Under the pieces are notes generated by a model. It had not been told where the DNA came from. It did no database searches and saw only the letters and a program-made list of their open reading frames with translations. Shown one piece after another: positions 7,601 through 64,000 of a stretch of 64,000 nt of DNA. The stretch's first letter is position 1; every line of letters begins with the position of its first letter. The translations under genes were made by a program, and so were the position numbers. Origin of the DNA: Megalonaias nervosa (Eukaryota; Mollusca; Bivalvia; Unionida; Unionidae). The DNA lies in NCBI GenBank assembly GCA_016617855.1, contig JAECUM010016780.1:1-64000 (forward strand), read 5' to 3'.

Positions 7601-7739
7601 TAGTATTAGTATTAGTATTCACTTTGTTGGGAAATTATTTTGTTTGTGTAGTGATAAACCCTGTTTTGTGTTTTACACAATTTCATTTCTGGTGCAATTT
7701 ATCTTGGCACACTAACAGTGGGCAATTCTTCTAGCAAAG

Positions 7740-9124: not shown

Positions 9125-9190
9125 TAGAAAATTTCTAATATTAATGAAATTTATAAATCAAAAGAAAATTAACACTTATACATAGCCAAG

Positions 9191-18905: not shown

Positions 18906-19638
18906 TTTCCATTACAATAACTGCAAGTAAAATACAAGAAGTATCCTCTCTCTCTCTCACTTATATAACTAGGAAAAGGCATGCTAGCTTGGTTTCAGAA
19001 AACTACATCAACTCTTCAATACTACTGGAAGCCAAAGACATGAGGGCTCCTCCCCTTCATGGGTAGAAATGATGTCATGTACTTGGTTAGTACCCCTAGC
19101 TTGCATATTTAGATGCTACCAGATTTCAGGTGTTACCTTTGATTGACAGGCCCTGGTTTAATTACTTCACACCTGATAAGAAAAACCATTGATGTTCATG
19201 ATAAAGGAATGGCGAGACTTTGCCACAGAATAAAATTTGTCAACTTCAGGTTTTACATTTTCATTAAAATTTAAGTTAAATTTAAATTTTCATATAAAAT
19301 TATGTATCATTTTTTAAAATTGAATTTTCTAGAAAAGTTTAACAGTCAAGTTTAATTTCTAGTACTTTCCAGATTATTGTTAGGACTGAAAACTAATCAC
19401 AATTTATTTGAAGTGTTTATTTTGATTAGCAAAATCACAATTAAACTTTAAGTTTTGTGAATTTTTGACATTTGGCCATTTGGAATTGGCTTGTGCTTGT
19501 GTTACAGTGGTGTCAGATAAAAGCCTGTAACTGTCCTATTCATGGATGAAATTCCTTGAAACTTTGCAGCAGTATTTAAGAGACATTGATTTAATCACGG
19601 ATGGAAGTTTCGTCTGTGGAGGTGAAACTGTCTGACCC

Positions 19639-20462: not shown

Positions 20463-21057
20463 TGTGTGTGTGTGTGTGTGTGTGTGATTTGGGTTTATAA
20501 CATAGCTTTAAAAAAATTTCAGTCATATCACTACAATATCTGCAGTGTGAAAGTTTATAGTGAGGTCTAGCACTGAGGCATCATGCCACAGACATGCAGC
20601 TTCCATGGGCGTCTGCAGGATTTTTTTGCGGGGGGGGGCAGGATTTTTTGCAGAGGGGGGTCAGTCAGTCACGGCCAGGGGAGTTAGTACAGTAAGCAGT
20701 TTGAAACTAAAGCTAATATTTACTAAGTGTTTTGAACAGAATAATGTGACATATTTTCAGCTTCATTTGCATGATTGAACTTGTCGGAATTTATATATAT
20801 ATTTGCAGTATGATTTCCAGGGGGGTCACGTGACCCCCCGTTTGACCTGTGCTGCATGGTAGCATCATGTCCCACCCAGTCACATTATCCTGACACTAGG
20901 CCAACCAGTCCTAACACTAACCTCTTAATGCTGATTGCCAAGTGAGGCAACTGCAAGTACCGTTTTTATGAGTCTTTGGTATGACTCAGCCAGGGTTAGA
21001 ACCCACATTCTTCCGCATCTGAGGTGGACACTCTAACCACTATGCCACTGGAGCAGT
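20463..21057 (-). mobile_element. tRNA-derived SINE, interrupted by a MITE
   Basis: Read on the minus strand it begins near 21057 with a tRNA-like head (A box about 21040, B box GGGTTCTAACCC at about 20995). It continues through the body word CAGGATAATGTGACTGGGTG and ends with a (CA)n tail at 20463-20487. The element at 20604-20858 splits it. The flanks of the break match uninterrupted copies at 24594 and 50034. The MITE is therefore younger than this SINE. Confidence 0.88.
20604..20858. mobile_element. hAT-type MITE, 255 bp, copy 2, nested in a SINE
   Basis: It begins CATGGGCGTCTGCAGG and ends in CTGCATG. The flanking 8-mers GCAGCTTC (20596-20603) and GTAGCATC (20859-20866) resemble the intact SINE target GTAGCATG. 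The interior matches copy 1 closely (AGTCAGTCAC, TTTTCAGCTTCATTTGCATGA). A perfect 20-bp palindrome with CACGTG at its centre lies at 20820-20839. Confidence 0.88.
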
Positions 21058-23657: not shown

Positions 23658-24593
23658 GAGTGCCACATCATCATGTCTTGTAATGATGCAAGACTGAATC
23701 CTGATCTAGTCACGTATTATTAACTTTGAGAATGTGTCAAATGACTGCACAGTCAGGATGACCAACTTCTCAGGTGACCACTTCTAGACAGTCCAATGAG
23801 TGGTTGCTATTTGGGTTTTATCGTTGGTTTTTTTCCCCAATATTCTACACTTGTAGAATAATGAGGTACAGTCTATAAACATCCTTATGTAAATAAAAAG
23901 ACCATGTTCAAGCCAGGCTAGAAAGCAATTCATGACCTGAAAATCAATGTTTCACCAGCTAAAATTGAAGTACTTAAGACATCAACTAGCACAAGTACCA
24001 CTTACGATCCTGAGAGAAAACATGTTATTTCAGCAGTAATGTTACATGAACATAGGCAATTTTAGCCTATAAGATTATAATCAACTTCACTAATATTCTT
24101 ATAAATGTCAAAATTTACACAAAAAAGTTAAGATTCCCAAGATCAGTCACTTCTGTATAGTACAATGACTGAAAATATGTATGAGATTTCCCAGAACATT
24201 ACTTTCAGCCAGAAATATATCAAAGATTTCAACCTCAGTGTTGCACCTTGAGCACAGAATCTCAAGTTTCCCACATTTTTGTCCCATGTTCCACAAATCT
24301 TGACTCCTGTGCACCCCAAATGCTATTTCATCAGGGAAAAATCTAAAAATCTGTCGATTTTTCTTCTGGTGCAATTTCTCCACATCTTTGTTAGTGCATG
24401 CATTGGCCAAAATCACCAAAGGCAATAAAAACCATTTTACATTGTTAATATACCCACTCCCCTTCTACAAATTAACACCATATGATTAACTTAAACATGA
24501 CTTAAATTAGCCCCCAAAACCAATACCATGCTAAATTTGTACCTATCAGCATTTTCAGCCACTGATAACATAGATCTACAGAAGGATTATGTG
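23658..24593. other. Anonymous DNA
   Basis: Nothing recognised. A 92-codon minus-strand open frame at 24147-24425 has no motif I can name and is probably chance. Confidence 0.45.
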
Positions 24594-24895
24594 ATTATGA
24601 TTTTTTTTAAATGTAGCTTTAACAATTTTTCAGTCATATCGCTACAATGTCTGCAGTGTGGCAGTTTATAGTGATGTCTAGCACTGGGGCATCATGCCAC
24701 AGACATGTAGCATGATGTCCCACCCAGTCACATTATCCTGACACCAGGCCGACCAGTCCTAACACTGACCTCTTAATGCTGAGCACCAAGCGAGGTACCA
24801 TTTTTGTAAGTCTTTGGTAAAACTCGACCGGAAATCGAACCCATGACCTCTCGCATCCGAGGCGAACACTCTAACCACTAGGCCACCGGAGCAGT
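24594..24895 (-). mobile_element. tRNA-derived SINE, near full length
   Basis: Minus-strand element whose 5' end, at 24895, reads ACTGCTCCGGTGGCCTAGTG. The B-box-like GGGTTCGATTTCC and the body word GGTGTCAGGATAATGTGAC follow. The 3' end contains GACATTGTAGCGATATGACT. The head has A and B boxes (internal RNA polymerase III promoter). The anticodon loop reads CTCGGAT, which would be CGG, but the tRNA parent is uncertain. Confidence 0.9.
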
Positions 24896-27892: not shown

Positions 27893-30809
27893 CACTTGTT
27901 AGGAAAATCCAGGGAATACTGTTTCATCAAACTTGTAATCCTGCACAAAAGTGTGAAACTCCTAGGTAGAACCTTGAGATGAATTTCAACACTTTTCTTG
28001 TCCATATGATAATGGATGAATTTCTAAATAAAAGGGTGCATTAATATTGATGCATGGAAACAGCATGTCTTTTGGAAGCATTGTTTGTGAAAAGGTTCCT
28101 GCTTGTGGTAAAGGATTCACCCAAATAAACATTTAAAGATTCAAGGGGAAAAAAAAGAATTGTACTATTCATACATTTTCTAAGAAATACATGAAAATAC
28201 AATGAAATTTCAGGACTTCCAAAATACTAGTATACGAAGAACTAGTCAACCTTTGTGCCCTATGAATTTTGACCCCTATGATCTTTGCTATCCCAGTTGA
28301 ATCTATAAGGGAACCATCATAGTTTTGTTGGTGGATTGTCAAACTCATAATCCAGTATGTATGAGCATATTTTTGGGAAGGGCATTAACTCATTTCCTCT
28401 GCATGGAATAGCGGCCATGTGTTGAAAATAGCCGTTTCCACCAACAATAACCAATCTATGAATTTACTAGTACCTATCAGAACTAACTGTTGCATGTTTC
28501 ATGCTCCAATATTGGATGTATGAGGGAAACAAGTTTCCTTTAGGATGAACTAGAAATAATTGTCTTTTAATCAAAATCCCACATCAGTACAACCATACAT
28601 TGAGAAAAATATAACCATAACAAATGTTTTCAAGTTGACTGCAAAATCAGCTACAATGATGTCAGACTGGCACCATTTCAATTAGGCAAAATAAGTCTTG
28701 CAGTGAAATCCTCATGCTGATAGGGACATTTGAGAGCTGTACTGACAAGATTTATAAGATGGCTGCCATGGTGGCCATACTGGATGTCTGTGGGGCACCA
28801 TTTTCCTTTCTGACGATCCTTACAATAGGATAATGTCTTCATAAATTTTTATAGCAATACTCACCTTAGGATTTGTGATCAGAAACTTGCTAATAGACAA
28901 TGGACATCAGATGAAAGGCCATCAAATAAAAATTAGGTCATAGCAACAAGTAACAATTACAAGAATAGATTACCAGACCTACTTTGTAATTTTCTTTCTT
29001 TTGTTTGCAACCAAACAATAAAATTTCCAAGCTTTTTGAAATACTAATACTTGGGACCTTTTATTATTCAATCTTGATGAGGTACACAAAAAAAGAGCCC
29101 CCACCTACACACCCACGTTTCAATGCTAAAATCCATACATACCTTAGTTTACTGTCTGTAAAAATTCTTAAAATCAACTGAATTAGCACATCACTGACAC
29201 AAGAACTCCTGTTCGAATATAATTATACACACCCACATCTTTGCTTAGGAGAGTAGCATTATTAAGTTAATTCCTTTCTCAAAGTATGTATAGATCCAAT
29301 TTACAGATCCAATGTGAAAGCACTAGTAAAATAAACACAGGCTGACAACAAATGCTTATAGTGCACATTATACAACATCACACATTGATTTAGTGAAAAC
29401 AATGATACAAATTTCTCTGAACTACAGTATTTGCCATTAAACAACATCTTTGTAAACAGAACCATTCATGAGCAACATTTTACTGCATTGTTTCTTTGTC
29501 ATCATAGGTCCTACAATGTCATAGTTGTATATCTGGTTTCATTCTTGCTTTATTTCCTCATGTAGTTGTATCTACCAGTAAGAAAAATATCACTACAGTC
29601 CAGTTATGATGTACTGACACTGCCCGATACATTCAACAAAGACATGTACAAACTGAATCCCATCAATATAGGAAACACACCAAATTAAACAATCACAATC
29701 TGAGTGAGGTATGGTGCATATATTATAATGACTGTCAGTTGGCAGTAAGCCTAGCAGGTAGAAAGGGAAAAATTTAAATTCAAAATCATTGAAATTAAAG
29801 AACATTGTTTCAGTTATCATCAACCACGCACACAGTTAGACCTTCTCATGAATATTACAGCTTTAGCCGTAGCCCCAAATGTCAGCAACCAATGTCAGAC
29901 TGACCTCAAATTTGCAAATGGGGCCATCATTTAACATAAATTTCTGGCCCATACTATTTGTACTATTGCAATGTGCTTCAACTGAAAATGACTATTCGCA
30001 CAACTGCCATGTACATGATCTGCAGAAGGCTATTCACACAAACTGTTGCATATATAATTTCCTTATAGATATGTGCATATCTGCTATGTACCCGATTGGA
30101 TTTTTTTAGCAAGTTATTGTAGACAAAACTGGAACAATCAATGGTGCGAACCAAAGTGAGAAGATGTTTTAAGGCACCCCACCAGCCCCTGCCCTGGCAG
30201 GGTGTGTAGGAGAGAGGGTACCAATGGGGTTTCTATGAGGGGTGTGTGGGCTGCTTTTTAATTGCTCTAGGGCTGCCTACCATCTTAATCCAGACTTGGC
30301 TACTGTTATGACTCAATGGTCTTCAACAATGCAACAGAACAAAGCAAAACCAACAAGAAATTATTTCCCTAGAAAGAAAGTGAAAATTCTGAAGACACTG
30401 TATTGTGAATTAAACCCCAAATAATCTGGAATGTTCTTTCAAGAAGTCCAAAGTACAGAATGTTCCAAACAATTTTGAAGTCTTGAATGTGTTGATGTAC
30501 CAAGTTTTGATGTACAACAATAATATAGCCCAGAATGTCTTTGAACGAGTCGTCAATGACCCCAAAGTAGCGTACTGGTCCATAAGTCAACTAGCACTTT
30601 GAAATTCCAATTAATAGTTTTAATAAATGATTCCTCTCAAATTATATCTGAACACAAGAGTAAATTATTCCAAAGACTGAACTTAAAGTATGAATGGATA
30701 ATTATTTACCTAGTCTCCTTGATATTGTTATGTATATATTTTCTGCATTGTTTGTTTGCTAGGTTTTTTTGTTTTTTTATTTCTTTATATGCTATGGATA
30801 ATTGTATTT
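27893..30809. other. Anonymous DNA with two ~190-bp repeat units
   Basis: About 2.9 kb with no gene seen. The stretch 28480-28810 holds two units of the degenerate ~190-bp family (AAGATGGCTGCCATGGTGG, CATACTGGATGTCTGTGGGG). A short palindrome CCCTGCCCTGGCAGGG lies at about 30187. Confidence 0.5.
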
Positions 30810-31606
30810 TGGACTTGACCTGAGCTGAATCATTTTTTTTTTAATTCTGCAAACAATAACAATCTAAAATTTTCTCTGTGAGAATGGGTTTAATATTAGG
30901 ATTATTATTAAAAGAACTAAACATATTTATCATGGTCTGAGTTAAGGACATTGCGTTTTACATGTTCTTTATTATAATTTTAGTAACAGACCTAATTATA
31001 ATTGATTCTATCTTGAAAATATTTGGAAACTTCCAGAATGAAATTTTCCATTAGGTAATAGTTTTTTTTTTTAAAATGCTAATTGTGACCTGAGGTCAGG
31101 TAGAAGACAATATAATCTTGTTACTCAAAAAATTATTTATTTGTGCTTTAAGATCTGACCAGAAACATTTTTATTATTGTTGTGTCTAGTATCTCTTTTG
31201 GGCTTGAATTTATTTATTCAAATTATTCAATTACAAACTGCTAAAAAATATCATTTTTAGAAACAGAGGCTTGGATTTATAGTGAAATTAAAATAAGGAC
31301 ATCTTCTTGGATTGTATTATAGTGATGCAACAAAAACTGCTGGCACATCACCATGACACAAGCCACCACAGGCACATCAACACTTGCAGCATTGGACTGT
31401 TTATTTTGGAATATCACTAAAGTTTATTCATAATTTAAATAGTAGGACTTGTGTTAGAATACTAGGACTTTTGTTAGAAATTCTAGGATTATTTATTATC
31501 CAATTTGCATTTTTCACATTGTATTCAAGGGAAATAAATTATTTGTTTAATTTTATAAAGCTTGTTGCTTTTCACTCTTTTCTATTACATACGACAGAGT
31601 TGTAAT
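30810..31606 (+). mobile_element. LTR-like segment, copy A
   Basis: It matches the other copies by TTCTAGGATTATTTATTATC, a CAAGGGAAATAAATTATTTG polyadenylation-like block, then CACTCTTTTCTATTAC. Ordered words match the reverse complement of 43113-43980. No gag or pol lies nearby, so it is a solo or non-autonomous LTR candidate. The 5' edge is uncertain. Confidence 0.5.
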
Positions 31607-34345: not shown

Positions 34346-36829
34346 ATAATAATTTAATTTTCTTGTATGACATCGAACATTGCAACTAATCTGAGAACTT
34401 TCGACTTTCAGAGTGTTTATCGAAAGCACAAGTACAAAATAGACAAGTCAAACAACCAACACAGAGAACGAAGTTTAATTTGTACATATTACGTAAGAGT
34501 TTAGATAGTTGTATTAATTTATATTGGTTATCATTTTTCCTTCGAAGTCCAAACCAATATGGCAGTATATCCACAACTTGTAAATAATGCTTCCATTAAA
34601 TTCATAATCATGTAAAATTGTGTAAATTACAAGTTTCTTTTGTGCATATTGTTCTTCTCGGTTTTTTTTTTTTTTTGGTTTTTTTTTTGTTTGTCTGTTT
34701 TGTCATGTTGCCTTGGACAAAGATTAAATTAAAGCCGAAAAACACTCAGGCTATTTTCAAAGTAGTTTTGCGATGTGTGCTGTCATTTTGAAGAAAAACA
34801 AATACAGTTTGAGAGTTATAGTTTTTTCCATACAGAAATCGAACCCATGCCGTGAGTAATTATCGCCAACTCTCTTGCACCAGCGCCCCATCCCTCACAG
34901 ATCCCTCATACAACACTTATTTACCTATTAACAGTTCTGATGATTATTAAAGTTCTCATTAGATTGTAGTACGTTTATTTATTTATGTTATTTTTTTATT
35001 TTGCATCTGGTATCATGCCTTATAAAGACTGAGTACAAGTGAAAGTATGTGTTTAAATCAATGTTGAGGCGCGGGGGGTGGGAGTGGATTGACCCCTTGC
35101 ACCAGGTGAAGGGGGGGGGGCTCAGTCGGAAGCTTTTTTGGTCTTGGTTGATATTTTCATAGTAGTTCACCTCACCGTAGTGTTGCGGGGGCAATTCTTG
35201 ACAAAACTTATATTTAGGGCAAGGGGTGGGGTGGTGAGGGAGGTTGGCAGCTGAGAAGGAAGGCCACTAAAGAACTACCTCCGGGCGCCTCGGTAGGGGC
35301 GCCACTAAAGAACATTGCCTCGAACCCTTTCGCCGCCACTGGATTTAATGGGGGTATGTGATAATGCTCCTTATTTTTATTACATTCTATTGTAATGTAC
35401 ATTTTTAATAGCAAGGATATGTGTTTACCCTATTTTTTTCTTTTGACGGCCATATGAACATAACATCTTTCTAAATATATGTCATTCAATAAAACCATCA
35501 TCGTCGTCGTCATCATCATCATCATCACCATCGTCATCATTAGTAGTAGTAGTACAGAGTAATGGAGTGAAGAGTATTATATCTGAGGGTGAATCATCTA
35601 GAATTTTTTTTTAAACCAGAGACCTGCATTATATATGTCTCTGCTTTCGAAATATGATGAGTAAATACTTTCAGCATCTTCATTTATATAAGTAATATGT
35701 TCCACATTACTGTGCAAAAGGTATATTAGTAATATGATATCCACACGCGGCCAAGCAGGCGCACACACAGAGAATGAAAGTCAACAGATTTCCGTGGATC
35801 GTATTTAATGTGCGGACCCATCATATTTCTAAGACATTTTGCCTAATATCACATATAAACGCAAAAAATATTTTCCACTTTTCCGGTGCTTCGTTAAAAT
35901 CTCCGGATCGATCGAAAAGTAAAACCGAAATTGTAAATTTAAATTTGCGAGCCTGAAGATCTGAATTGTTACTGTTTTAAGTTCCGAGTCATGCATTTGT
36001 TTTCCATCTAAGTGTGCTTTAAGCATTAAAATCTGCCGATTTTAAATTGTTCTAAATGTATTCTATCATTGTCGAAAATATCATCCGCAATGAAATTTTT
36101 GTATATTTCCGTACCTTGGCTGAAAAAGTTAATTAAAGTGATTTAAAGAAATTCACTTTTCATTTTCTTTGAGAACTGAGTATTCATATCTTTTCTGTCC
36201 TTATTTTATTGTTTTTCTAACTTGAATTAAATATTGTTTTATTTATTTTGCTACTGGTTTCTTTTCTAAGCATGCACATGCAGTCCGATACATAAGCCCA
36301 AAAACATATCAGTACTTGATAGGGGGCTAATTTATCAAACAGGCTAACATGTCATGTATCTATTAAATGCACTGCATAACTATGAAAGGTCGGCATCTGA
36401 CTTCTGAGATGACTTTAAAATAAAACACTCATTAAAGTAATAAAGTAGAGTTCGGATGGATGGGATCGAAAGATAAAGTCTATATTTAGGATAAATTAAT
36501 GCAAACTTATTGTATCTTTAGCTCAAATTTGTGTCATTTAAACAGCTTTACTGGTTGATAATTAAAAACTGTAAAATGTCTCGCAGACAAACCCAAAATA
36601 CATTGTAACATCGTTTATCTTGTTCTTTTCTTTTTTTGTATCTGACCATATGTATAACAAATTCATTAAAATTTGGTGATCCACTCTCGTTCAATCCAGC
36701 TGTCATTATCTGAGTGTTTTTCGTACCCAGAGGATTTCGAATGCACTAGATTGTATTACGTAGCTATCAGTTCGTCTGAGATGTTGGTGGCTGTGCGTTA
36801 CATATAGTCAATTCAATATTAGCTCTCTA
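34346..36829. other. Anonymous DNA, simple repeats, possible MITE remnant
   Basis: No gene seen. 35050-35345 has G runs, a duplicated CCACTAAAGAAC and an end TTTCGCCGCCACTGG that recalls hAT MITE termini, but no matching left end was found. 35497-35540 is a mixed (CGT)n/(CAT)n tract. Confidence 0.4.
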
Positions 36830-42509: not shown

Positions 42510-43112
42510 GCAGGACAACCTCAGGTCGGTCACCGTGACATGTTCTTTGGCACGGAACGTCACTCCAATTGCGTCAAAATGATGTAACCTTCACGTGTTG
42601 CTGGGCCGTGAAACACCAAACCAGTGAAGAATCTGAACCGAACATTTATTATCAGAAAAATAGTCGAAGGCTTTTTCGTAGCATTTTTTTACCGGCTTGG
42701 GAGCAAATTGTCATATTTTTCAAACTGCAAGGAGAAGTTGTTAAACTACGAAATGTAACTTCCTACTGAAGAAGAAATTTGAGTCTCTTCAATCTTACTG
42801 TCAGTTTTGCTTTTTGTTTCAAACTTGAACATCACTATTTAACTACACCAGGCATGTGCAATTTCCTCCAGGGCGCGACCCGGATAAGCGCTTGTTAAAG
42901 TCACACTATAAATAAGCGGATGAAACCAGGTCGTATGTTGCATATGTTTGCACTACACAAATATCAGTCATCTGTAGAAAACAATGTCCATGTTGTGCAG
43001 CTAGTGCTGTACCCCAGACAAATTCAAGGCTAACATATAGGTTTTGTATACTGTTCGTGGGACAACTTAGGACAACCTAAAGATGCTTTCGGTGGAAAAT
43101 CTTAAATGCAAT
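42510..43112. other. Non-coding DNA with a SINE-like 3' end
   Basis: GTTGCTGGGCCGTGAAACAC at about 42597 resembles SINE tails of mollusc type. Otherwise no gene or repeat is seen. Confidence 0.4.
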
Positions 43113-43980
43113 TGTTACGAGTCTATGCTCTTGAAATAAGTAACAGAAAAGAGTGAAGACAACAGACTTTGTAAAATTTAACAAATAATTTATTTCCCTA
43201 AAACACAAAGTGAAAAGTTAAGAAAAAAGAACTTACGGTTTTACGAATTAAATCCAGAAATAATCCAAGAGTTAAAAAATAGAAGTCCTGGTAATAAAAA
43301 GTTCTGAATGAAACTGAGTTCGAGTCCCGATGAAATCCAAAATGGAAGGCGATGAAGTCTGTTATGGTCAGCGAAGTGCTGCTGTGTCAACAGTCCTTCG
43401 TTGAATTACAGAAAATATTATTCCAGTTTTGAATTCAGTACAACTTCCAATAAATGTCTTGATCCAAGAATTATGTAGGAGCACTTATGTATTTCCAGGG
43501 AATAGAATCACTTGAATTCTATAATCTGAAGAAAATAAAAATTCAACCCAAACTGGTCACAACATAATAACTTAACGTGTCAATTGTTTGGAGCCCAACT
43601 GACAAACTTCTATCAAAAACAACAGTTATATGCTAATTAAGACGCAAAACAGATTCCCGGATGAGGGTCAAAAGTTCATTCTTCTAGAAAAAATAGAAGT
43701 TTGTAACAATTGATACATGTTACTTGTCACGTAATCCAGGTATGACATTGACTTAACTTAATGATTCTTACTCTGAGAAAGATAAAAAAATAAAATAAAA
43801 AAGTTCTTTACCAAAACTGTCACTGACTTTGAAACGAGGTCAGCAACTACATACAGTGTTTCTATTATTATTTGTTTACGTCAATGAAATCAAAAATAAA
43901 AATGTCTATCAGGTCAAACAGAACTGAACTCAGTTTTGGATAAGATCAAGTCCAGTAAACAATGTTACATTACAATAACA
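43113..43980 (-). mobile_element. LTR-like segment, copy C
   Basis: On the minus strand it ends GAGCATAGACTCGTAACA and carries AGGGAAATAAATTATTTGTT, a polyadenylation-signal-like block, about 80 bp before that end. Upstream is GGATTATTTCTGGATTTAAT followed by ACCGTAAGTTC, a donor-like word. The same word order appears in copies A, B and D. No coding region adjoins. The TG start is uncertain and no target duplication could be fixed. Confidence 0.6.
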
Positions 43981-46413: not shown

Positions 46414-49400
46414 AGGCGGTGGGATAAAGCTAAAATACTGTAATATCTAACTCAACAAACCAAAATACTAGGCACTATTAAGAACTACATTCCTTTTCCA
46501 ATAATAAAGCTAATAATGGTAATGTAAAAAACATGAAACAACGTCCGAAAACATGATGCAGTTCACTATGTTGTAATACCTTAATGGTATTGTGAATGGA
46601 CTTTTGCATGCATAAACGCTGTCCAATTAATGTGTGAAGATTATTTGATGTTAAACGTTGAGATGTGAGATGATGTTTGACCTACGAGACTTTGGCAAAT
46701 TTGATCATGTAATTTTTGTCTGTTACTGAAAACGTCTACCATGTGTGACTTTCCTGAACGTATGCCACCCACCCACCATTGTTTAGATCGCCGTCTGCAT
46801 CTCTTACAAATGTGTACTCTGTGTTTTATACTAAATGTGAGTATAAAACCTTGCTCTGGTCCTCGTAATATCACGCTCTCGTCACGAGTATTAATGAATT
46901 CGTCAAGGAATTCATCTAAAAGTCAAAAACAGTGCCACAAGCCCTGGGACATCAACATTAAGTGGAAATAAGTTCGCATGTTAACAGTTATCGTGCCCTA
47001 TTAATTTCCATGTTGGACCATGCGTGTGTCATGCTGGAATTTCACATGAATAGTTTAGAAAATAAATTATCTTATCTTCCATAATTTTTGGAATAACAAA
47101 GCCAGAAACATAATGTTAGTCCATAAATTAGTGACTTCAACCACCCGGTGAGTTTTGTTACTGGAACAGCGGAGATGCAGGATAATGATCGAATCAATGT
47201 GCCCAGCTGAAGAATCACATTTCTCTTGTCAGACTTTTGTTGAACAATAACTTAGAACAAATGTTACTGTTTATTGTTGTAAGTTCTTGGTTATGTAGAA
47301 CTTGTTATTTTACTTTAATGTGCAAAATAGTATGCACTTGATAGGGACTATTTCTAACCGTATTACGACTCATTGCATCACCAGTACGTTGTACTCTCGC
47401 TCGATTCGCATCGAAATTCACTTTTCCGTTTCGTTCAGCAACTGTTCGTAACTGCAGGTATGAATATACAAATAAGGTTAAAAGTAAATACGCACACCAC
47501 GGACATTGAGAGGACAACTTAATTCTGTCTAAATTTTGTGTTCAGAGGGATTTTTCCATGCAGTTTGAACAGTTGACTTGGTTACTGAGAAGGACAAACA
47601 TTGATTGGCTAACTAAGGTCATGTGACGTGAATAGGAGTCTATAAATTTGAGTGCAAGACAGTGCACTGGCAGATAGCTGTCAGAGCGGCAAAGTATGAA
47701 TATCTAAGTAGAAAAGGATTTTGGCCACATATTCTAAATCCAATCGAAAACCATAATTTGTATTTTTTTGCATAACCAATATTAACTTTGGCACTTTAAA
47801 ATCCCAAAACTGAATCATATTGTTAAGAGAAATTTTAAGTAGATTTATTACATGATTGCTATTGAATTTAAATGCCTTATAATTCTTTATAAAGCCGCTC
47901 CTATCTCCCACCACACTGCTCAAGTACACTTGTACTAAAATTATTATTTCTTTTCATTGAATTCACGCTATCATGTCAGAATGTGTTACAGTCAGTCTAA
48001 TAAATTTAGCTGTTAATATACACAGGAATATTATTGATAGCATTGTGATAGACACTGTGTTTATGTAAAGCCACTATGCGAGACTGAAAAGCATGTTCTA
48101 TCTCACCTTTTTATTTATAAAAATCATTTTTAAGTTCTGAACTCTGGTCTTTTCGATATTTAACACACGCGGTGTTACAATACCAATTAGCAAATCCGTT
48201 TTGAAGTCGGCTTTACAGGAATTTCTGTTTCTGGTGCTCATTTAGTCTATGTTGAAGATTTCCTCCCATTCTAATTGACCATAATAAATATAGTTCTAAA
48301 AATGAATGGTTGGGAAGACGTGTCCTAATTTTGTGTGTCATCACTGGAAGCAAGCTAGCAGTTAATTCAATAATCGTATATTGTATAACCCATCATTCTT
48401 GTTGATTTCTCTGCTTGACTTTTATTTATTAGTACTGATTTGTCAATTTTCTAGGAAAGCACTCATTACTGCTGGCCACTTTGATTGCCATTTCCTCAAT
48501 ATTCACGCACCATTTCTCAACCGTCCAGACAGTACACGCATGCTTTTGATTTTGAAGCAGACGATTTTGAACGGGCAGATTCTCATTAAGATTCCCCAGT
48601 ATCAGGCATGGGACACATTTTAATCTGCACAGTTCATTTGGAAGTGATTTTTGGACCCAGCCCAAGATTGATTACATGATTTCTCGGGGCTGTTTATTCA
48701 GGTCGACAAGTTTCTGATCTAGGGCAACACATTGCACTATATTGCAAAGATCGTACTGATGTAACAAAATCTATACCTGCATAGTAATAAAGTACGTTCC
48801 GTTTCTTACACTTTCAACCTAATATGGGATGTTGAATTCGTTGTCAAATACCTCGCTGGTTCCTATTTGTGGTTTGATCTTGTTTTCTCAGAGTTTTTCG
48901 AAGAAATACTCGTGTTTTCAAGGTGACGCTGCTCGATTATGGAAGATGAATAAATTCATTTTCATTACATCTCTTAAATAAAACACAATGTATTCAGTAT
49001 TTAATATTGATATGTTACATTTCTATGAAGCGCAGTAGATGTAAAAGACAGTTTTAACCTCAGGCGACTTAATGTAAATCGTGGGTTTGTCTCGGATGAC
49101 TTAGCGGCTTGGCCCAACCTCATACCCACCCACCCCCAAAGAGGGCTGGGACTATATGAGACCTTTAAAGGGCTGCCTTGCTCCATTTAGTCCACCCTAT
49201 TAAGCCACTTGGTTTTATCGTACTGATGTATGCTGGACATATCTGCGTGTAGTCCTAAAAGGAATCCATTTAGCTATACAAGCAGAACTGCCAGTTTTTA
49301 AGGTTATAGATTACCTAATGTACATATGTAAAGGCTACGAGTTTCAACACGCAACTGTCATTTACTCGGTCTGTCAAGCGTGTAACCGGAAGCCCATGTT

Positions 49401-50033
49401 ACTGATGTTAATCAATGCATTGCTTATCGAATTGAATTACGGGACATTGAAGTACTGCAAACATTTTTTTTTAACTTTCTGCTTGTTAGGGAGCGGGATC
49501 TTTTATTTAAAGAAATATAAAAAAAGGGTATAACATTTCACGCAGACACCTCATTTTAAGGCAAAGGTACACGCACTTGGCTGAGACAAGGAAAAGGAAG
49601 AGTAGAAAAAACTTTTGTTGAATATTGTGACCTGCCTAAGTAGAGTTCAGCAGAGAATGTAGAATGAACCCATGATGGTAATGTGGTACTGGAACATGGG
49701 CCATTGATTGGATATGTGCTAGTTGTTGTGGTTTTCGTGCAGCAAGAGAGGCGAAGATTGCAGAAAACGAGTATTTCATCAAAAATTATTTGTGACTTTC
49801 AGTCAAAGTAAAAATCAGTCAGATAATAGGGAGCATAAGCATAAAGCTTACTTCAAGCACAACAAAATAAAATCCATTTAGATAACAAGGAATTAGGGGT
49901 ATAAAACTTAAGCGCAAGAAAATAAAATCTATTTCGAAATTAGGGTTGATATGTATAAAGCTTGACCAAGGACAGCACTATGTCTAATATCACATGTCTG
50001 AGCGAGCTGCTCCAGAAAGGGCAGATAATCCAG
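46414..50033. other. Anonymous DNA
   Basis: About 3.6 kb without recognised gene or element. Open frames of 60-82 codons occur on both strands but none has a known motif. Confidence 0.4.
47604..47647 (+). promoter_or_regulatory. Promoter-like cluster (CCAAT, CRE-like, TATA)
   Basis: ATTGGC (inverted CCAAT) at 47604, TGACGTGA at 47624 and TATAAAT at 47641 have RNA polymerase II promoter spacing and would predict a start near 47670. No downstream gene is recognised. Confidence 0.2.
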
Positions 50034-50280
50034 TGTGGGTGTGTGATTTGGATTTTTAACGTAGCTTGAATAATTTATCAGCCATATAGCTACGATGTCT
50101 GCAGTGTGGCAGTTTATAGTGATGTCTAGCACTGGGGCATCATGCCGCAGACATTTAGCATGCTGTCCCACCCAGTCACATTATCCTGACACCAGACCGA
50201 CCAATCCTAACACTAACCTCTTAATGCTGATCGTCAAGCGAGGCAGCCGCGTGTACCATTTTTATAAGTCTTTGGTATGA
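50034..50280 (-). mobile_element. tRNA-derived SINE, head missing
   Basis: It matches the body and 3' end of the SINE at 24594 (CAGGATAATGTGACTGGGTG on the minus strand, GT-rich start at 50034). The tRNA-like head is absent after 50280, where the GC-richer Polinton-like block begins. Confidence 0.85.
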
Positions 50281-50289
50281 ATAGTTCGG

Positions 50290-50760
50290 CGGGTATGAGC
50301 TGGGACGCCCTCCTAAAGAAAGCGTGAACTTCTGATAGACATCGAGATGTAACTGTTTATCGATAAGGGAATCCGTGGTGGCATTTTGAAGGTGATCCAC
50401 CTTCATGCAAAAGCGAGCAACCCAATGCGCCCAAACTCTGACAGCCAAAAGCCAAACAACTGGATAGCCAACCTTGACTTCAACAACAACGTCTGATTGC
50501 CAACCTGCTGTTTCAGACGCGAAAAAGTTTAGTGACAACAATGTTGCTGTTCATTCCACAAAAGTCAACCTGAAGTTAAAAAGATGGTCCTAGTGATAAG
50601 CACACTCCCCATGTACGACGTTTACTACGACCATATCCGGGCGCGCTAAAATAGAAAGGTGGCCCTCTAAATAGACGGACACCGAAAGCCTGCTGCTGTA
50701 GACTGAAACTGCCAATGTCCATCGCGACATGGCTCAACACTAACAATCGATCGCCTTAGA
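50290..50760 (+). pseudogene. Protein-primed DNA polymerase B relic
   Basis: Frame 1 shows a block ending in GIRGG (50368-50382), followed after about 20 codons by an aspartate-centred motif of the polymerase palm. This combination is characteristic of family B polymerases of Polinton-like elements. MYDVYYDHI at 50611 precedes a frame change. DTES at 50678-50689 then stands for the DTDS metal-binding motif (D to E at the third position). The spacing between the two palm blocks is only about 100 codons, where intact enzymes have clearly more, so an internal deletion is likely. Several stops interrupt both frames. The rest of the enzyme was not found. The family copies the element genome from a protein primer. 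This copy is dead. Confidence 0.6.
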
Positions 50761-51014
50761 CGACATCACAACGCTGGGATATGGCCACAACTGTACAGCA
50801 CTGCTGGAGGATCAACAACACACACTGGCCTTGGGGGTCTCTTAGTACCTCAACGAGCTGTTTGGCTTCGTCGAGCGGTGCGATGGGTAAGGACACCAGA
50901 TAGTGGTAGCTGATTATCTTCAGGCATAATCCAAAGTTCCTCACGAACGAAGATTATGTACGGAACACCAATGTGATAAAGATGTGCGGCGTTGCCTCCT
51001 TCCAGCTCTCAGGG

Positions 51015-51810
51015 TTCTTACGACACTATGATCTTAAAGTAGGCAATAAAAAAGAGCGAAAACCAACTAGTTTTGTAAAATTCAACAAATAATTTATTTC
51101 CCTTGAATACAAGTGAAAATTTAAAAGAACTTACAGTAATGCGAGTTAAATTCCAAATAGTCAAAAATATTTAATCACCATTCCTAATGAATAGAGTTCT
51201 GATTAAATTCCACCTGTATTCCAAAAAAAGATCCACGCTGAAGGTGTTAATGTGCCTGTAGTCTCGAATGTACTAATATAACAATGGCCTGAAGTGTGAT
51301 GATGTGCCAACAGTCTTTTGATGAATCACAATAATACAAGATAACCTTTTCTGAATTCGCTACAATTCAAAATTAATGTCTCTGTCCAAGAATATTACTG
51401 AGCACTTTGTAATTTCAGAGAATAATATTTTGAATAAAAAATTCCAGCCCAAATGAAATACTGAGCAGAACGATAAGACTGATTTCTGCTTCAGATGTTA
51501 TTTCATTAATAAATAATTTTTCCGGTAAACAAGATTATAAAACCATCTACTTGACCTAGGTTACAATTAGCTTTTTCTAAAAAAATCACCTATTACTTAA
51601 TAGAAGCTTCCATTCTAAAAGATTCTGTTACTAATATTATACTTTAAAAAAGCATGGCAATCACAATGTCCTTGACTCAGACCAAGATAATGGTCCTAAT
51701 GTTTAACCCACACTCTTATAAAAATATTAACAATGTATTATTTGTTTACCAAACTAAAAACATCAGTGTCTCTAGTTAGAAACATGAACTTGACTTTGGA
51801 CACCAATATT
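51015..51810 (-). mobile_element. LTR-like segment, copy D, inside the Polinton-like block
   Basis: It matches copy C: AACAAATAATTTATTTCCC, then GAACTTACAGTAATGCGAGT (donor-like word reversed) and a closing TTGACTTTGGACA. Its AT-rich composition contrasts with the GC-richer DNA on both sides. It inserted into the polymerase-containing element and is therefore the younger of the two. Confidence 0.6.
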
Positions 51811-51869
51811 TTCTTAAGAAGGAGGTTCTAAAACTATTCAGATGTTTTCCTCGGTTCCTCGAAGAGTAT

Positions 51870-52860
51870 GGCTGTCAGCTTCATACCTTTCGCTGGTGGG
51901 TTTAGGTTAATATTCGACCTGGTTTCACTCTTGTTTTGTTCAGCTCTGCTGTGGCGCATCACTCTGGCTTGCGATATAGCCATACGTACTATCTACTACT
52001 GCTTAGCCATGCGTTCGTGCTCTGCGTGGGTCACGACTTCGAACTCCAAAGAGATACCGCGGATGGTGTGGATCATCTGTCTGTTAGCTACATCATTAAC
52101 GGTGCTGATGATCACCACCCGTAGACGCTGAAAGTCAACACAAACGTGAGACTGTCCAAGGGGCCAGGCTGGTAGCATGACATTTGGTCACATAGCATTC
52201 GAGTGGCATGATAGATTGATTCCCAGACACTATAGCGACATACGTGTCGGGCTGAGTGACAGCAATGGCATAGCCAGCGCCGACACGTATAGTGGCAGTA
52301 TTTGCGTTCTGTATATTCTGGTAGAGCCCCCGTTGGTCCTGTCAGTCAGCAAAAAAATCTTTCTAAGCGCCCCAAATATCGTCGTAGTCGATGCTGACTT
52401 CGAGATTGACGCGTATCTTCTTGACAGTGGCACGGTCCAGATCTTAATGATCACCGTTGGAATCAGTCTCAGCTCCTGAGCCGATGCTCAAAGCAATTTT
52501 GAATCCCAGCCTGACTATGCCAGGTAAAAAACATCTTTGCCACAGAGGCTGTGAAATTTGACAGTTGGCACTTGGTATTGGTCTATGATGTTTTGGATTG
52601 TTGGTCACAACAATTGTGCTCAGTGTCCCTTTGCACCAAGCGCGTGGTGGATGAGTCGAGTTTGTTCCGATATTGCGGCATGCTTGCTGTTCAGCTGTCT
52701 ATTGGACTTCCCATGCCCTCTCATCAACAAGCGAGCATCGATACTGTTCCAATATGGCTCAATGAGGCTTTGACTTGGAAATGACCGGCCATGGGGACGC
52801 TGACATAACAATGACTGACTTTGATATCTTGGTTGAATAGCAAAGATTTCATTCACATTC
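51870..52860 (-). pseudogene. Virus-like structural ORF relic, minus strand
   Basis: Read on the minus strand from about 52856 to 51996, protein-like sequence continues through stops and at least two frame changes. The clearest part, about 52440-52200, contains EVSIDYDDIWGA and a long beta-rich stretch with RVGAGYAIAVTQPDTYVA. The last part (52178-51996) includes NDVANRQMIHTIRGIS. I do not recognise the family. Its beta-rich character and place in the block suggest a capsid or other structural protein. Open frames in the plus direction over the same bases look like shadows. Confidence 0.4.
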
Positions 52861-53535
52861 TGACTCTGACAAAATATGCAGGATTTGGAAAGCCGGCTAC
52901 GGACTCCATGGATATGAATTTAAAGCAGATCAGAATAAAATCCGCGACGAGAAGGTGAACTAATCTTTTCTAAAGCAAAACGGCCTAATAACAAAGCCGG
53001 TCAATGCCAACCATACTATGAAGCAAAAATAGACTGAGTATAGTCGCAAAGGAAACGCTGTGCCAAACGTCACTTTCTGGCCAGAAAAGTAACATGGCTG
53101 GGCCATATGAAATTATTTGACGACCGTACATCCTTGAAATATTGTTGGTCACGCGACAGCACAAAATCTTTAAAATGTACGAACGAGGTGCGGCGGATAC
53201 GAGGGTGTACAGATGCCAAGCTTTTCAAGGACTTGGTTCGCAGGACATAGCAGTCAAGGATGTGACGGTGCAGGAACTAGATTATCTGCCGATGCCGGAG
53301 CTCCTGTGCATTAATAAGACACTGCAAACTCCAAAAGGTGCGCTTGCAAACAATGTTGCCAAAAGAAATAATAAACTACACAGACGTGTTAAAACAAAAC
53401 TGCTGAAAGATCCAAGATGAAACAAAGCACAAGCAGTTGATAACACAGCTCGCGGTCAAGAAGAGGAAACTCAATGGCCTTTCCAAGGAGGCCGACGCGT
53501 TACGAGGAAGGTTCCGCAGATAATTTACCGTTATC
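52861..53535 (+). pseudogene. Unidentified ORF relic, plus strand
   Basis: A 92-codon open frame at 53142-53420 (first residues MLVTRQHKIFKMYERG) is basic at its C-terminus (RNNKLHRRVKTKLLK). Flanking sequence stays GC-rich and partly open. The family is not recognised. It could be a small nucleic-acid-binding protein of the element or chance. Confidence 0.3.
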
Positions 53536-53589
53536 CGGGAACGTTAATGACCATATTGTCCAGGATGATTTAATCCTTTGCGAAAAGGT

Positions 53590-54620
53590 GCGAACCGTCT
53601 AATGCAGTTTTATTGGCTTCGTGGTAATCAGCCTTTTCGACTCCTGTACTGTTTGCATGGTGCTCGCATGAGTGCTGGTTTTTGTCGTTTCCGCGTCTTG
53701 AGCGGGCGGGTCAACACCGACTTCAACATTCTTACATGGTTGCGGTTGTTGACGTGTACTTTGTTCCTGATCGGCGGGCAGTTGTGCGATCATCCTTATC
53801 GAATTAATATCAACAACTGGTGCCTACCGCCACATTGTCGTCCGCTCTAAGAGGCTTGATTTTAGACTCCACATAGGTGCCAACAGTACGGTACATGTCA
53901 GTTGTGATGATATTGAGGTCTCCCTCAGCGACGTAATTTAGCTTCATTTGGTGAACAACGACTTGTGCATATTTAACATATTGGGGGAGTTCTCAGCTTG
54001 GCCGGTCATATATTGTACATTTGAAAAAAATGTTTTTGTACATTAAAGGCATTTTCTGCCCCCACAACCTAGGTAAGCATTCGGTTTGTGAGTCCAGGAT
54101 TGCCTAAGCGTACGGGTAACACGCTTTCGTTGATACTCTCTATCCGGCATGGTAAAGTCTTGCGACATGTTGAGCATAAAATACGCAAAACCATGGTTAG
54201 ATTCGCTGCCCTGTTTAAAATAGTCAGCTTTGTGTTTTCTTTGTGTCCCATATACTGACTGGTAGCCGTTGTTGACACTTTAGTTGTACATAGTATCGAC
54301 ACTTTAGTTGTACATAGTATCTATGCCTTCTTGCAAAAGCACTTGTAGGCAACTGTGTTGATCTTGCTTTTAAGTACGTTCAATCATGTTTGGACAGGAA
54401 AGGCAAACCGCAGCTGTGTGAGTATCCTTCTTATATGGTAATATACATGGAACCGATAAAAGCTAGGTGTCATCTTAGGCAATCTTGCAGTTTCTGTTCA
54501 GCAGCTGAAACGACGAGCAACAGGTGATCACGAACGCTGATACACAACTGGTGGTCGCGCACCAAATAGCTAAGTTTATCCTATTTTGCCAAAATTTCAT
54601 CTCGCCGCCTGCGGTTCCTG
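53590..54620 (-). pseudogene. Capsid-like ORF relic, minus strand
   Basis: Minus-strand sequence is readable from about 54620 down to 53850 in shifting frames. The start has WQNRINLAIWCATTSC and RFHVYYHIRRILTQ. The middle has GFAYFMLNMSQDF and SVLPVRLGNPGLTN. A later block has NYVAEGDLNIITTDMYRTVG. The composition (aromatic, beta-rich, no signal peptide) and position fit the major capsid protein of a Polinton/adintovirus-like element, but this rests on recollection. A 24-bp direct duplication around 54285-54320 (ACACTTTAGTTGTACATAGT twice) adds a local break. Confidence 0.35.
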
Positions 54621-54621
54621 A

Positions 54622-56110
54622 GAACTAATGTCCACCATATTCACCTCGACCAAAGGCAACACACACTTACAGACTATGTCAACAAATTAGGTCCGGAAGG
54701 AAACACCACCCCGCACATACACGTCGAGGCTAAAAAGCAGTTCGTGGATCTGCCTCTCGAAGTACTTGAAGCAAAACCATCGCTCCCCATTAATGTTCGA
54801 ACAAGTGCTGAGAATGTATGTTGTATTGACCAATCCTCTATTTGGACCTGTGCCTCCAGAAAAGGTGATGTGCACCGACTGAGATTCGCGTGTGGCACTC
54901 TGGGAAACTTCGTACCGAAAAGTTTGATTCAGCATTTAGGATGCGCTTGGCAGAAAGTTTTGTGCTGCTGACCTAGCGAAGGGACTGCCGATCGAGAGAA
55001 GCGGAATAACCCGCCAGCTGGATATCATAACCTATCTCGAATGGTATTACAAGAGATAAAAGCTAGAAAAAACCAATACAAGTTACCATACCTGGATTTA
55101 CTGCAGACTGATACCAAACAGCTGGGCGGATCAGCATCGTAGTCTCCGATGACAACCTTTTACTATGTATTGAACTGTTGCTAACCAACATTTTAGGATT
55201 CGGCGACGTCACGGATTTTGCAGGAGGCACACTAATAACGACAGCACCTAATCCAATGGCATTCATCAACGTCGCACAGATTTATGTCTGCCTCGATCAA
55301 ATTAACGCAACTGGGAGAATACTTGATGAGATAAACAGCACCCAGTTACAAGTTATTCCTGTGGGTGGTGAGTCCAACAGGGACACGCTTACTGTCTCAT
55401 TTGGAAAGCTACATTGATGCAGATTACATGAAGGCGACATCTATGAGCTCTAGTTACGTATTTTAGATGAAGAAAAAATCCACACACTAATTAATATGCT
55501 TGGGTGCACAATAACCCTTTAAATTAAGAACTAATGCTCGCACACCATGAACCTATGTGGTTCTGGATTCCTTGATAGCGGCACTGCCAATATCGCAGGG
55601 CCATCTCTTCCATTTAGTGGCGACACCCTCCCCATGGGCCTCGAAGCGGGTGGTGACAGCTACCTGGACACAACGGAGGCAGAGTATGTGACATATGAAG
55701 AGCTGGAGGCCTTCTCGAGCCTTGCATGCGCTGATGGATATTGCGTATTAAACGGCTGACTGAATCACGTCAGTTGGCGGGGTTACAGCAATAAATGCAC
55801 CCGATGGATTTGCACTCAAGAACGATAACGACACTGTCACCGGCCTGGCCGCCGGTTTTTATTTCATGAATATCAACGGGAGTCACGGTGATGGAAAGTG
55901 GGCATCGCTTTCAATTCGTGTTAACGGGGTCTTAATGGTACAAAGTGGCAGTACTGCCGATCTGGCCAATACCTGAAACGAAAGCCTTACAACTAACTTT
56001 CCTTCTAAATTTTCAGCCAGAGACACTAATAGGTGCGAGGGGCTCAACGTCAACGCACAACCAACGGGGTTTTCAGGAACTCGTCATGGCTGCATTTGAG
56101 CAGCAATTAC
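54622..56110 (+). pseudogene. Virus-like structural ORFs, plus strand
   Basis: Divergent from the capsid-like relic and starting close to it. One stretch (about 54630-54970) contains HIHVEAKKQFVDLPLEVL. A second (about 55070-55417) has VTIPGFTAD, a stop, then IELLLTNILGFGDVTDFAGG and INVAQIYVCLDQINATG. A third (55547-55759) is acidic (DTTEAEYVTYEELEAF). A fourth (about 55775-55975) has AAGFYFMNINGSHGDGKWAS and SIRVNGVLMVQSGS, a beta-sandwich-like pattern. Stops and shifts separate them. Minor capsid, fibre or other virion proteins are the likeliest roles; the family is not named with confidence. Confidence 0.4.
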
Positions 56111-56159
56111 AAATTTCTATCAAATTAAAGTGGAGTATTGGAATAGCTCGCAAAACAAA

Positions 56160-56960
56160 TGCCTAACATAGACAAGGAAAGCAAACAACTTCTAGAAGAG
56201 TATTTCGTCAACTTGAGGTTGACACGTCCCGGTTGAGATTGGGATGAAATGAGGATGCCAAGCAGATATACATTGAACACTAGGGGTATACAGTGCACCC
56301 TGAGTCAACCCGTGCTCAGCTCGGTGATATTGAGCTTTCGCTGCAAAAGAAACAAAACCCAAAGGTACTGCCACATCACGGTAATTGGACAGAAAAACAA
56401 AGAGTCGGTGAACCTGTGAACAAAAGGCAAGCTATTTGTAACGATAAGCGTGTTGGCGGGCGTGATGCCTTGCACTCACGTTAACGGGCTGTTCAGAGGC
56501 AAAAAATCATTTTGCCATCTTGTCTAATTCAGCTTTGCATACACCATGGAGTTATCATAGGAGCTATTAGCACGTAGTCACGCGGCGGCACGCAATAAAA
56601 CATTCCATTGGTTTCCTCTATCTGACCATAACAACCAATTATTTACTATAGACATGGGGCAAACTGCAGCAGAAATGAAGTGGCTTAAGTGCAAAATATC
56701 GCTCCCAAACTCCATGTGGGCTGATATACGCACGCTACAAAATATGGGGTGTTCACTAATAGCCTGCTCGTTAGAATATTCGTATACTTTCGGGAGTGCA
56801 TTATCAGTTTGTGGTAAACATTGTAGTTTCCTCAACATGTTTTGCTTCAGAGCCTCGCAAAGAACAACGACATCCTCACGTGTCATCACCATCCTTCGGT
56901 ACCGTTTTAGCTGCAGTAGCAGATCACGTGCCATCAATATTAGTTATTATTAATGGCAGC
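56160..56960. pseudogene. Two small unidentified ORFs at the block edge
   Basis: On the plus strand, 56162-56480 begins MPNIDKESKQLLEEYF but shifts frame near 56240. On the minus strand, 56937-56578 is open for 119 codons (start MMARDLLLQLKRYRR) and is the cleanest frame in the block. Neither is recognised. After about 56960 the sequence returns to AT-rich anonymous DNA. Confidence 0.3.
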
Positions 56961-58058
56961 ATCTTTATTTGGCCCCAGGCACTAAAAAATATTCAGCCCT
57001 AACAAAAATAAACATTGCAACTGTCAACACATTCAGTAACACGTCTATAAGAAAGCAACCCGTACACATTTTACCTCACCAATATTAAATAAGAGACGTT
57101 TATAAATCAAAACAGGTAAAGGTGTTTACTTGTGGCAATGTCCTCGCTAGTAATTCAGTAAGCAATCCATTAACGTTAATAAGACCGGTCTAAGGTTACA
57201 CGCTTTACAGACACAGTAAATGACAGTCACCTGCTGACAAGAACAAAAAGTACATTTAGATAACATATATGTTTAAACATTTTGGCAGTTTCGGTTTTTA
57301 TAGTCAAATGGATTTCTATGAGGACTATCATATACAACTGCATTATAAAACCAAGTGATTCAGTGGGGTAGCTTGGCTGGAGCAAGACAGTACATTAAAG
57401 GTCTCTGATGGACCTAGCCATCTGAGGGATGATAGGGTCTATGCAAAATTGTCATTTGCATCTACTAGCTTTAGCGTTGATGTGGAAATTGGTTCAAACG
57501 GTTATATAGTATTACCTTTCCGATTGGAAATGAACTTTGATTCTATGATACGAAGTCATCTTTGTCCAGGCACGCGGAACTACTTACCCACCAAAACATT
57601 CATGTTATAGCCAGGTACAGAACGATGACCACACCAAACCTCCTACCCACGCGGGCTCGTAGGTGTAGAATAAATCTGACGCCCCCACCCCCGCCCCTCC
57701 TCTGGACGTCTTCAGTGGAATTTAATATGTATCCCATAATGACGTTCCTGCTGTGAAGGTCATTAATTTCATTATCTTTGTTTTGTACGACTTTTTGAGA
57801 TACCTAAAATAACTTGATACTTTATAGCCATAAGTATTCTGATGTGCATATTCGTCCAAGATTGGATTCAAGACGTGTAACATCGCACGAAAACCCTATC
57901 CCTCCAAGGTTAACTTATCTTTTTTTTTTTTCTTTTACTAGACTTACATTAAATCAGCACATGCTCCTAAGAACATAATATACTTTTTCAAATCTTTTAA
58001 AACTTGCTATCATTGTGCAGCCAGAAAACGAACATTTACTGCAGTCGCCAGATTGTTA
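56961..58058. other. Anonymous DNA
   Basis: No gene or repeat recognised. C-rich patch at about 57680-57700. Confidence 0.45.
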
Positions 58059-61579: not shown

Positions 61580-61884
61580 ACCGCTCCGGTGGCCTAAGTG
61601 GTTAGAGCGTTCGCCTCGGAAGCGGGAGTCCGCGGGTTGAACCCCGGCCTAGGCATACCAAAGATTTATAAAAATTGTACTATCAGCTGCCTCGCTTGGC
61701 GAACAGCATTAAGAGGTTAGTGCTTGGACAGGTCGGCCTGGTGTCAGGATAATATGACTTGGTGGGACACGATGCTACATGTCTGCAGCATGATGCTACA
61801 CCTCAAACATCGTACCGATATGAATGAAACTTTTTTAAAGCTACGATAAAAATCCAAATCACACACACACACACACACACACAC
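61580..61884 (+). mobile_element. tRNA-derived SINE, full length with (CA)n tail
   Basis: The tRNA-like head GCTCCGGTGGCCTAAGTGG has an A box. The B-box-like GCGGGTTGAACCCCGG follows about 55 bp in. The body contains TGGTGTCAGGATAATATGAC and the 3' part CATCGTACCGATATGAATGA. It ends in a (CA)n tail at 61859-61884. It is the reference copy for the fragments at 20463, 24594, 32786 and 50034. RNA polymerase III would transcribe it; mobilisation needs a LINE in trans. Confidence 0.93.
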
Positions 61885-63462: not shown

Positions 63463-64000
63463 TCAATTGCACAAGATTGGTGTGGACCAATAAATTTAAA
63501 AGATATTGCCGCCAGTCATATTAACAACCAATCAACACAAACCAATACCTTACTGAGGATAGATGTTTCTACACAGTGTGATTTTAATGAAATGTCACCT
63601 GAGTATGGCACCCCTGTTAACAAAGTGACAACTGTAGATTGTAGGATACAGGTTAATTCCCCTGTTTTAACATTTGAGGATATTGAAAATGATGACCAAA
63701 AAATGCTATTTTATACTGGAGTTCCAAATTCAGCTATTTTCAAGGCATTATTTGATGAAATTAAAGATGATGCTACAAGTCAGACAGCTCGTTATGGTGC
63801 TACAAGTGGAAAGGGACATCCAAGACATTTGCGTCTGATAGATGAATTCTTTCTTGTCTTGATGCGATTGAGACTAGGCTTGTTACTGGAAGATTTAGCA
63901 GATCGATTTAACATTGGAATGTCGACATGTGGAATAATTTTTAATAAGTGGATTGATTATTTGTATATACAGTTAGATTTTCTAATCCAATGGCCTTCAA
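63463..64000 (+). CDS. PIF/Harbinger-type transposase, N-terminal part (runs off window)
   Basis: The frame follows a TAA at 63460-63462 and stays open for 179 codons to the window end, with no initiator required if it is a second exon. After a variable start, RHLRLIDEFFLVLMRLRLGL and LEDLADRFNIGMSTCGIIF form the helix-turn-helix that precedes DDE_Tnp_4 catalytic domains, ending near IQWPS. The catalytic DDE residues would lie beyond 64000. No frameshift is visible in this part. None of the three frames is open from the nearest AG (63456), so the splice acceptor is unclear. With the THAP exon upstream it forms a THAP-transposase gene of transposon or domesticated origin. Confidence 0.75.

Follow-up and report, generated by a model that had tools for sequence, protein, structure and literature searches.

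The window analysed here comprises the first 64,000 bases of contig JAECUM010016780.1 of the bivalve Megalonaias nervosa (GenBank assembly GCA_016617855.1; 2.19 Gb in 54,709 contigs, this one 68,657 bases long). Toward its right-hand end, a polymerase B and an integrase, both kept only as broken 3' parts, lie end to end between two inverted repeats, which set the span of an element at about 49135-57428, that is 8.3 kb, or about 7.2 kb after removal of two inserts. This stretch is very probably an old, dead element of the Polinton class (Maverick/adintovirus-like) integrated in a eukaryotic genome. A preliminary description of the same DNA had already proposed a decayed Polinton/adintovirus-like element, and the polymerase B, the convergent integrase tail and the terminal inverted repeats described below all support that proposal.

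A polymerase B remnant and an integrase tail

The polymerase, a protein-primed DNA polymerase B, was initially recognised by two motifs, GIRGG and DTES, and this identification is borne out: in a six-frame scan of the whole 64 kb each pattern was found once (at 50368 and 50678, both on the plus strand), and both lie inside a collinear polymerase-B fragment. A short polymerase motif led to the viral contig L001/L002, parts of whose polymerase match this fragment in order at 50371-50487, 50587-50631 and 50675-50740 (tblastn). In addition, a hidden Markov model (HMM) built from 120 of 5414 homologues, themselves obtained from a search of 5.8 billion proteins, was run over the 3421 stop-to-stop pieces of the window, and its best match is 50353-50493 (26 bits, E 3.5e-7). 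Among the eight highest-scoring matches, five fall at 50268-50842 in the order of the model, four of these being individually weak (E 0.25 to 7.5); the other three, also weak, lie at 34389-34595 (minus), 29610-29774 (plus) and 30709-30840 (minus).

The closest relative is the polymerase of L016 (JANQFH010000027.1, 5112 bp), a contig labelled as part of an Oligoflexia metagenome-assembled genome (MAG). It shares 31 of 54 residues (57%) at 50326-50487, where the window copy has one internal stop, and a further 11 of 13 at 50283-50321, with a linked E of 9e-15. On the 54-residue segment, 119 proteins (P0002-P0120) and 16 further loci score below L016, the next being L006 with 27 of 54, in a ranking that left out P0001, L013 and L015. 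The six polymerase pieces correspond to L016 residues 313-325 and 340-384 in one frame and 115-141, 145-166, 178-196 and 319-342 in the next. When each piece was tested against shuffles, five of the six beat all 500, and 18 scored at least as high as the piece at 50536-50646. By L016 coordinates, the gap between 50487 and 50504 corresponds to a loss of about 190 residues and the one between 50731 and 50750 to a loss of about 120, and the polymerase front, the place of the OTU-like domain, was not found in the window element.

Beyond the polymerase, on the opposite strand, 14 of 21 residues are identical to residues 270-290 of the L016 integrase (E 0.004), a protein that carries PF00665 (rve). 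The second-best of the 10 matches of this integrase in the whole window reaches only E 1.0, and none of 500 shuffles reached the score of the tail. The remnant consists of the final residues of the protein only, with an FVREELL-type tail as in L016; the integrase catalytic core was not seen in the window, where a dispersed repeat starts at 51015. The tail converges with the polymerase. In L016 the two genes likewise end towards each other, with 13 bases between the polymerase stop and the opposite-strand integrase stop, and the window retains this arrangement. All seven pieces, six of polymerase and one of integrase, are thus collinear with L016 and in the same orientation, including the convergent 3' ends, and six of the seven outscore every shuffle. 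Given the overall decay of this copy, with its stops, frameshifts, two losses of residues and absent polymerase front, the element is dead. L016, by comparison, is nearly open, with its polymerase in three overlapping frames and its integrase running off the contig end; no virion gene was seen in it for comparison.

From its content we read L016 as a misbinned eukaryotic Polinton-class contig. A scan of the genome contigs of the GTDB species collection with a polymerase alignment found 15 Polinton-class polymerase contigs (L005-L019, L016 among them), spread over 12 prokaryote MAGs, and these are probably misbinned eukaryotic or viral DNA. Scans of viral contigs with the L016 polymerase, the L010 polymerase and the L016 integrase gave no relative. 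The capsid family PF21738 was found in none of the four genomes holding L016, L006, L014 and L007, a result that is uninformative since the control was also without a match.

Terminal inverted repeats and later insertions

A search for terminal inverted repeats in the wider sequence gave a diverged pair (Table 1). The local alignment between the two arms scores 216, whereas 282 random pairs drawn from the initial 45.6 kb of the window scored no higher than 72 and 300 shuffles no higher than 45. The arms differ at 82 of 333 ungapped sites (41 transitions and 41 transversions; Kimura two-parameter distance, K2P, 0.30), and at E 1e-3 each matches only the other in 274 kb of host DNA, a sample made up of the window and 33 stretches (209,931 bases, partly overlapping, most picked around polymerase copies). 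The ends have the sequence AGAGGG at 49140 and AGATGG at 57423, and AG-repeat ends are one common type in vertebrate Mavericks according to PMC8097293. The extent first given for the element, 50281-56960, is therefore wrong, since the repeats place its ends near 49135 and 57428; position 50281 is the junction with an insert resembling a short interspersed nuclear element (SINE), not an end of the element. The longest inverted-repeat pair reported, 50137-50289/61644-61796, likewise belongs to this SINE-like repeat and does not mark the element ends.

Table 1. Features of the element and its inserts, in window coordinates
Feature	Position	Strand	Basis
Left terminal inverted repeat (AG-start possibly 49140)	49135-49510	+	local alignment
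SINE-like dispersed repeat, later insert	50033-50280	+	self-BLAST; host sample
Polymerase B remnant, C-terminal half, six pieces in order	50281-50842	+	tblastn to L016, HMM, shuffles
Integrase C-terminal tail (matched part 50951-50889)	50853-51008	-	L016 integrase match
AT-rich dispersed repeat, later insert	51015-51830	unassigned	self-BLAST; host sample
GC-rich remnant, gene content unrecognised, excess open frames of at least 60 aa on both strands	51840-57084	unassigned	open frames, GC
Right terminal inverted repeat	57428-57085	-	same local alignment

Both inserts lie next to where the polymerase front is missing, and they account for the AT-rich dip in the element. Other copies of the SINE-like repeat lie at 24590-24819, 20474-20984 and 61654-61872 and in L055; it has 10 matches in 5 sources of the host sample, and a tRNA-Pro-like gene stands beside one copy. 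The AT-rich repeat has copies at 31592-31026, 43112-43504 and elsewhere, with 11 matches in 3 sources. Two copies of the SINE-like repeat were compared with the insert (K2P 0.09 and 0.17) and one copy of the AT-rich repeat (K2P 0.25). All of these values are below that of the arms, which fits insertion after the arrival of the element, but K2P is no clock, and we put no age in years on these events.

The GC-rich block and the search for virion genes

The element had also been described as lying in a block clearly richer in GC than its surroundings. This holds for 51830-57085 (GC 0.450) and 50281-51014 (0.484) against 0.352 in the window outside 49135-57428, but the block is not continuous, as the AT-rich insert at 51015-51829 (0.301) interrupts it. 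The several long structural reading tracks reported there fare less well. The longest stop-free run in 51830-57085 is 133 codons, no longer than chance (mean 133.3 in 500 first-order Markov shuffles, 45.6% of which reach 133), and the tracks in 51840-57085 have no supported match. Runs of at least 60 codons, however, number 39 against a shuffle mean of 24.5 (p 0.002, 1 of 500 shuffles), and this excess makes some coding ancestry of 51830-57085 likely, although no single track stands out.

The DNA of the remnant (51840-57084) has no match in the host sample. With the nine proteins of L002, 11 of L004, 92 frames of L005-L019 and 39 frames of L049-L054 as queries, the best match inside 51840-57085 is only E 0.11. 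These queries score better in unrelated parts of the window beyond the element, the L002 minor capsid for instance at 38215 (E 0.017). The earlier assignments of capsid, penton and hexon are thus unproven, and none of the searches run supports them; decay may hide the capsid genes. Searches of the window for the packaging ATPase and the protease gave chance-level matches only.

Several candidates in the block were followed and set aside. The piece at 55112-55414, aligned with L002 and L004, resembled a minor capsid (penton) tail by eye. Of 229 relatives found with a query profile that included the window piece itself, 120 were used: profiles of 25 and 95 of them did not report this piece up to E 100, and in phmmer of the piece against the 120 the best E was 1.3. 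Between 124 and 177 of 200 shuffles reached the minor-capsid scores. Modelled by itself in AlphaFold, the piece had a mean pLDDT (predicted local distance difference test) of 39, and the model was not used. For the major capsid protein (MCP), that of L002 matches 55172-55405 at E 0.25 (29% identity over 79 residues; 1 of 200 shuffles scored as high), a profile of 47 MCP relatives gives the same place only 0.9 bits, and of 200 shuffles 55 reach the score of the L054 MCP and 39 that of the L004 MCP. As to the hexon, these three MCPs, none of which is a reference adintovirus hexon, gave nothing firm against the window. A C1q-like reading of 55764-55973 was suggested by a sequence pattern; nothing in Pfam matched the piece even at E 10, and in the PDB there was only a flagellin at E 0.52.

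A scan of 97 pieces against Pfam and PHROGs, hand-chosen (43 plus, 54 minus) from among all pieces, gave a single Pfam match under E 0.05, Hairy_orange (E 0.041), and under E 0.02 two PHROGs, 21997 for 52230-52487 minus (E 0.0026) and 30102 (E 0.017). With so many pieces scanned we attribute all three to chance; TAF1C_C for 54570-54968 (E 0.06) and PHROG 37391 (E 0.073) were judged likewise. A perfect 24-base tandem duplication lies inside the remnant at 54274-54321.

Elsewhere in the window there are traces of other mobile elements: a Mutator-like transposase in two frames at 17486-18911 minus (PF20700, E 1.9e-41 and 7.1e-15); pieces of a non-LTR (long terminal repeat) retrotransposon at 7716-11321 plus, namely a zinc knuckle, an endonuclease (below cut-off) and a reverse transcriptase; a GIY-YIG domain just under the Pfam cut-off at 6473-7162 plus (20.6 vs 22.6 bits), perhaps of a Penelope-type element; and the HTH_Tnp_4 domain of a DDE transposase at 63463-63999 plus, reaching the window end.

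Affinities, alternatives and meaning

With the vertebrate Polintons/Mavericks described in PMC8097293 the window element shares a polymerase B, a retrovirus-type integrase, inverted repeats of similar size, AG-starting ends (one common type there) and a degraded state, the last being the condition of 96% of 3,511 vertebrate Maverick loci. It differs in its length of 8.3 kb; in addition, no target-site duplication was found, and neither an MCP nor a minor capsid, ATPase or protease was recognised. Several observations weigh against our interpretation. Profile and protein searches of the window recognised no capsid, ATPase or protease in the element; at 8.3 kb, or about 7.2 kb without inserts, it is short beside the 12.7-24.6 kb given for intact vertebrate Mavericks in PMC8097293; the integrase evidence amounts to 21 residues; three weak matches elsewhere in the window are among the top eight of the polymerase profile search; and no 6-bp target-site duplication was seen at either 49140/57423 or 49135/57428, its loss being likely because the repeats have diverged by about 25%.

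The lack of supported virion-protein matches in 51840-57085 and of a target-site duplication would also fit a Polinton polymerase/integrase fragment that fell into unrelated GC-rich host DNA, with the repeats a coincidental host foldback and 51840-57085 no part of the element. We consider this very unlikely, as the repeats occur nowhere else in the host sample and enclose the GC-rich block, their size fits that of Maverick repeats (mean 402 bp in PMC8097293), and the DNA to either side of the insert has a similar GC of 0.45-0.48. That the resemblance is due to chance or to a host gene, so that there would be no viral element, has next to no probability: the pieces are indeed short and broken by stops, but the linked E of 9e-15, the collinearity of seven pieces, the convergent integrase and the polymerase HMM all speak against it. 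An adintovirus in the narrow sense, with an OTU-bearing polymerase and an adenovirus-like hexon, is unlikely, though less so than either of these. PMC11071296 defines adintoviruses by an OTU-like domain at the polymerase front, a hexon recognisable by BLASTp and an integrase with a C-terminal chromodomain. The polymerase and integrase superfamily fits, as does the weak L002 MCP match at 55172-55405, but the MCP profile hardly scores that place, an E of 0.25 means little when the L002 minor capsid does better at an unrelated position, and the polymerase front domain is missing.

The reading as a Polinton-class element also gains support from the many polymerases of its superfamily in this genome. 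A protein search of the assembly gave 26,926 loose first-look candidates, of which the 90 best-scoring, not a fair sample and without the window copy, were scored; all 90 reach E 1.3e-131 or better, and 75 have no stop in the matched part. Better-preserved Polinton-class polymerases are many, but the nine that were compared are more distant from the window element than L016 is. This abundant host family (polymerase loci L029-L048, neighbouring stretches L049-L054) belongs to the same polymerase superfamily as the fossil, and nine of the 20 fetched loci are 41-44% identical to its 54-residue segment (53 residues in one); the other 11 match on the minus strand and fall outside this comparison, for which only plus frames were read. 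One stretch of the family, L054, carries a double-jelly-roll-like MCP (PF21738) and an integrase in which a PLA2-like domain is joined to the rve core; its adenovirus-protease match is weak and below cut-off. Against the GC-rich block none of the 39 frames of L049-L054 reaches E 0.5, the best match having E 0.96. A PLA2-like domain (PF08398) and an rve core (PF00665) share one open frame in two distant elements, at L054:4294-5181 and L010:897-2117.

If the fossil followed the ways of its family, its ancestor would have used a retrovirus-type integrase, which acts on the inverted repeats, to integrate, and its own protein-primed polymerase B to replicate, and the right-hand 5.2 kb most likely once held virion genes. 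The element has since decayed, its arms have diverged to their present distance, and the SINE-like repeat and the second dispersed repeat now lie inside it. No sign of present function was seen; a working protein from the element is unlikely, and neutral evolution is most likely.

Polinton-class fossils are already known, and this is a further one, whose branch appears from sequence to be represented here by one other contig, L016. That it is the first trace of an extinct Polinton-class branch shared with L016, with virion proteins unlike the capsid sets compared, which invaded before the now-abundant family, is a speculative possibility to which we give little weight. To the record of large DNA elements in eukaryotes it adds a layered fossil, an old element with two later insertions, in a genome in which a different Polinton-class family is abundant. 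Should its branch prove separate, this would suggest that different Polinton-class lineages invaded the same host one after another.

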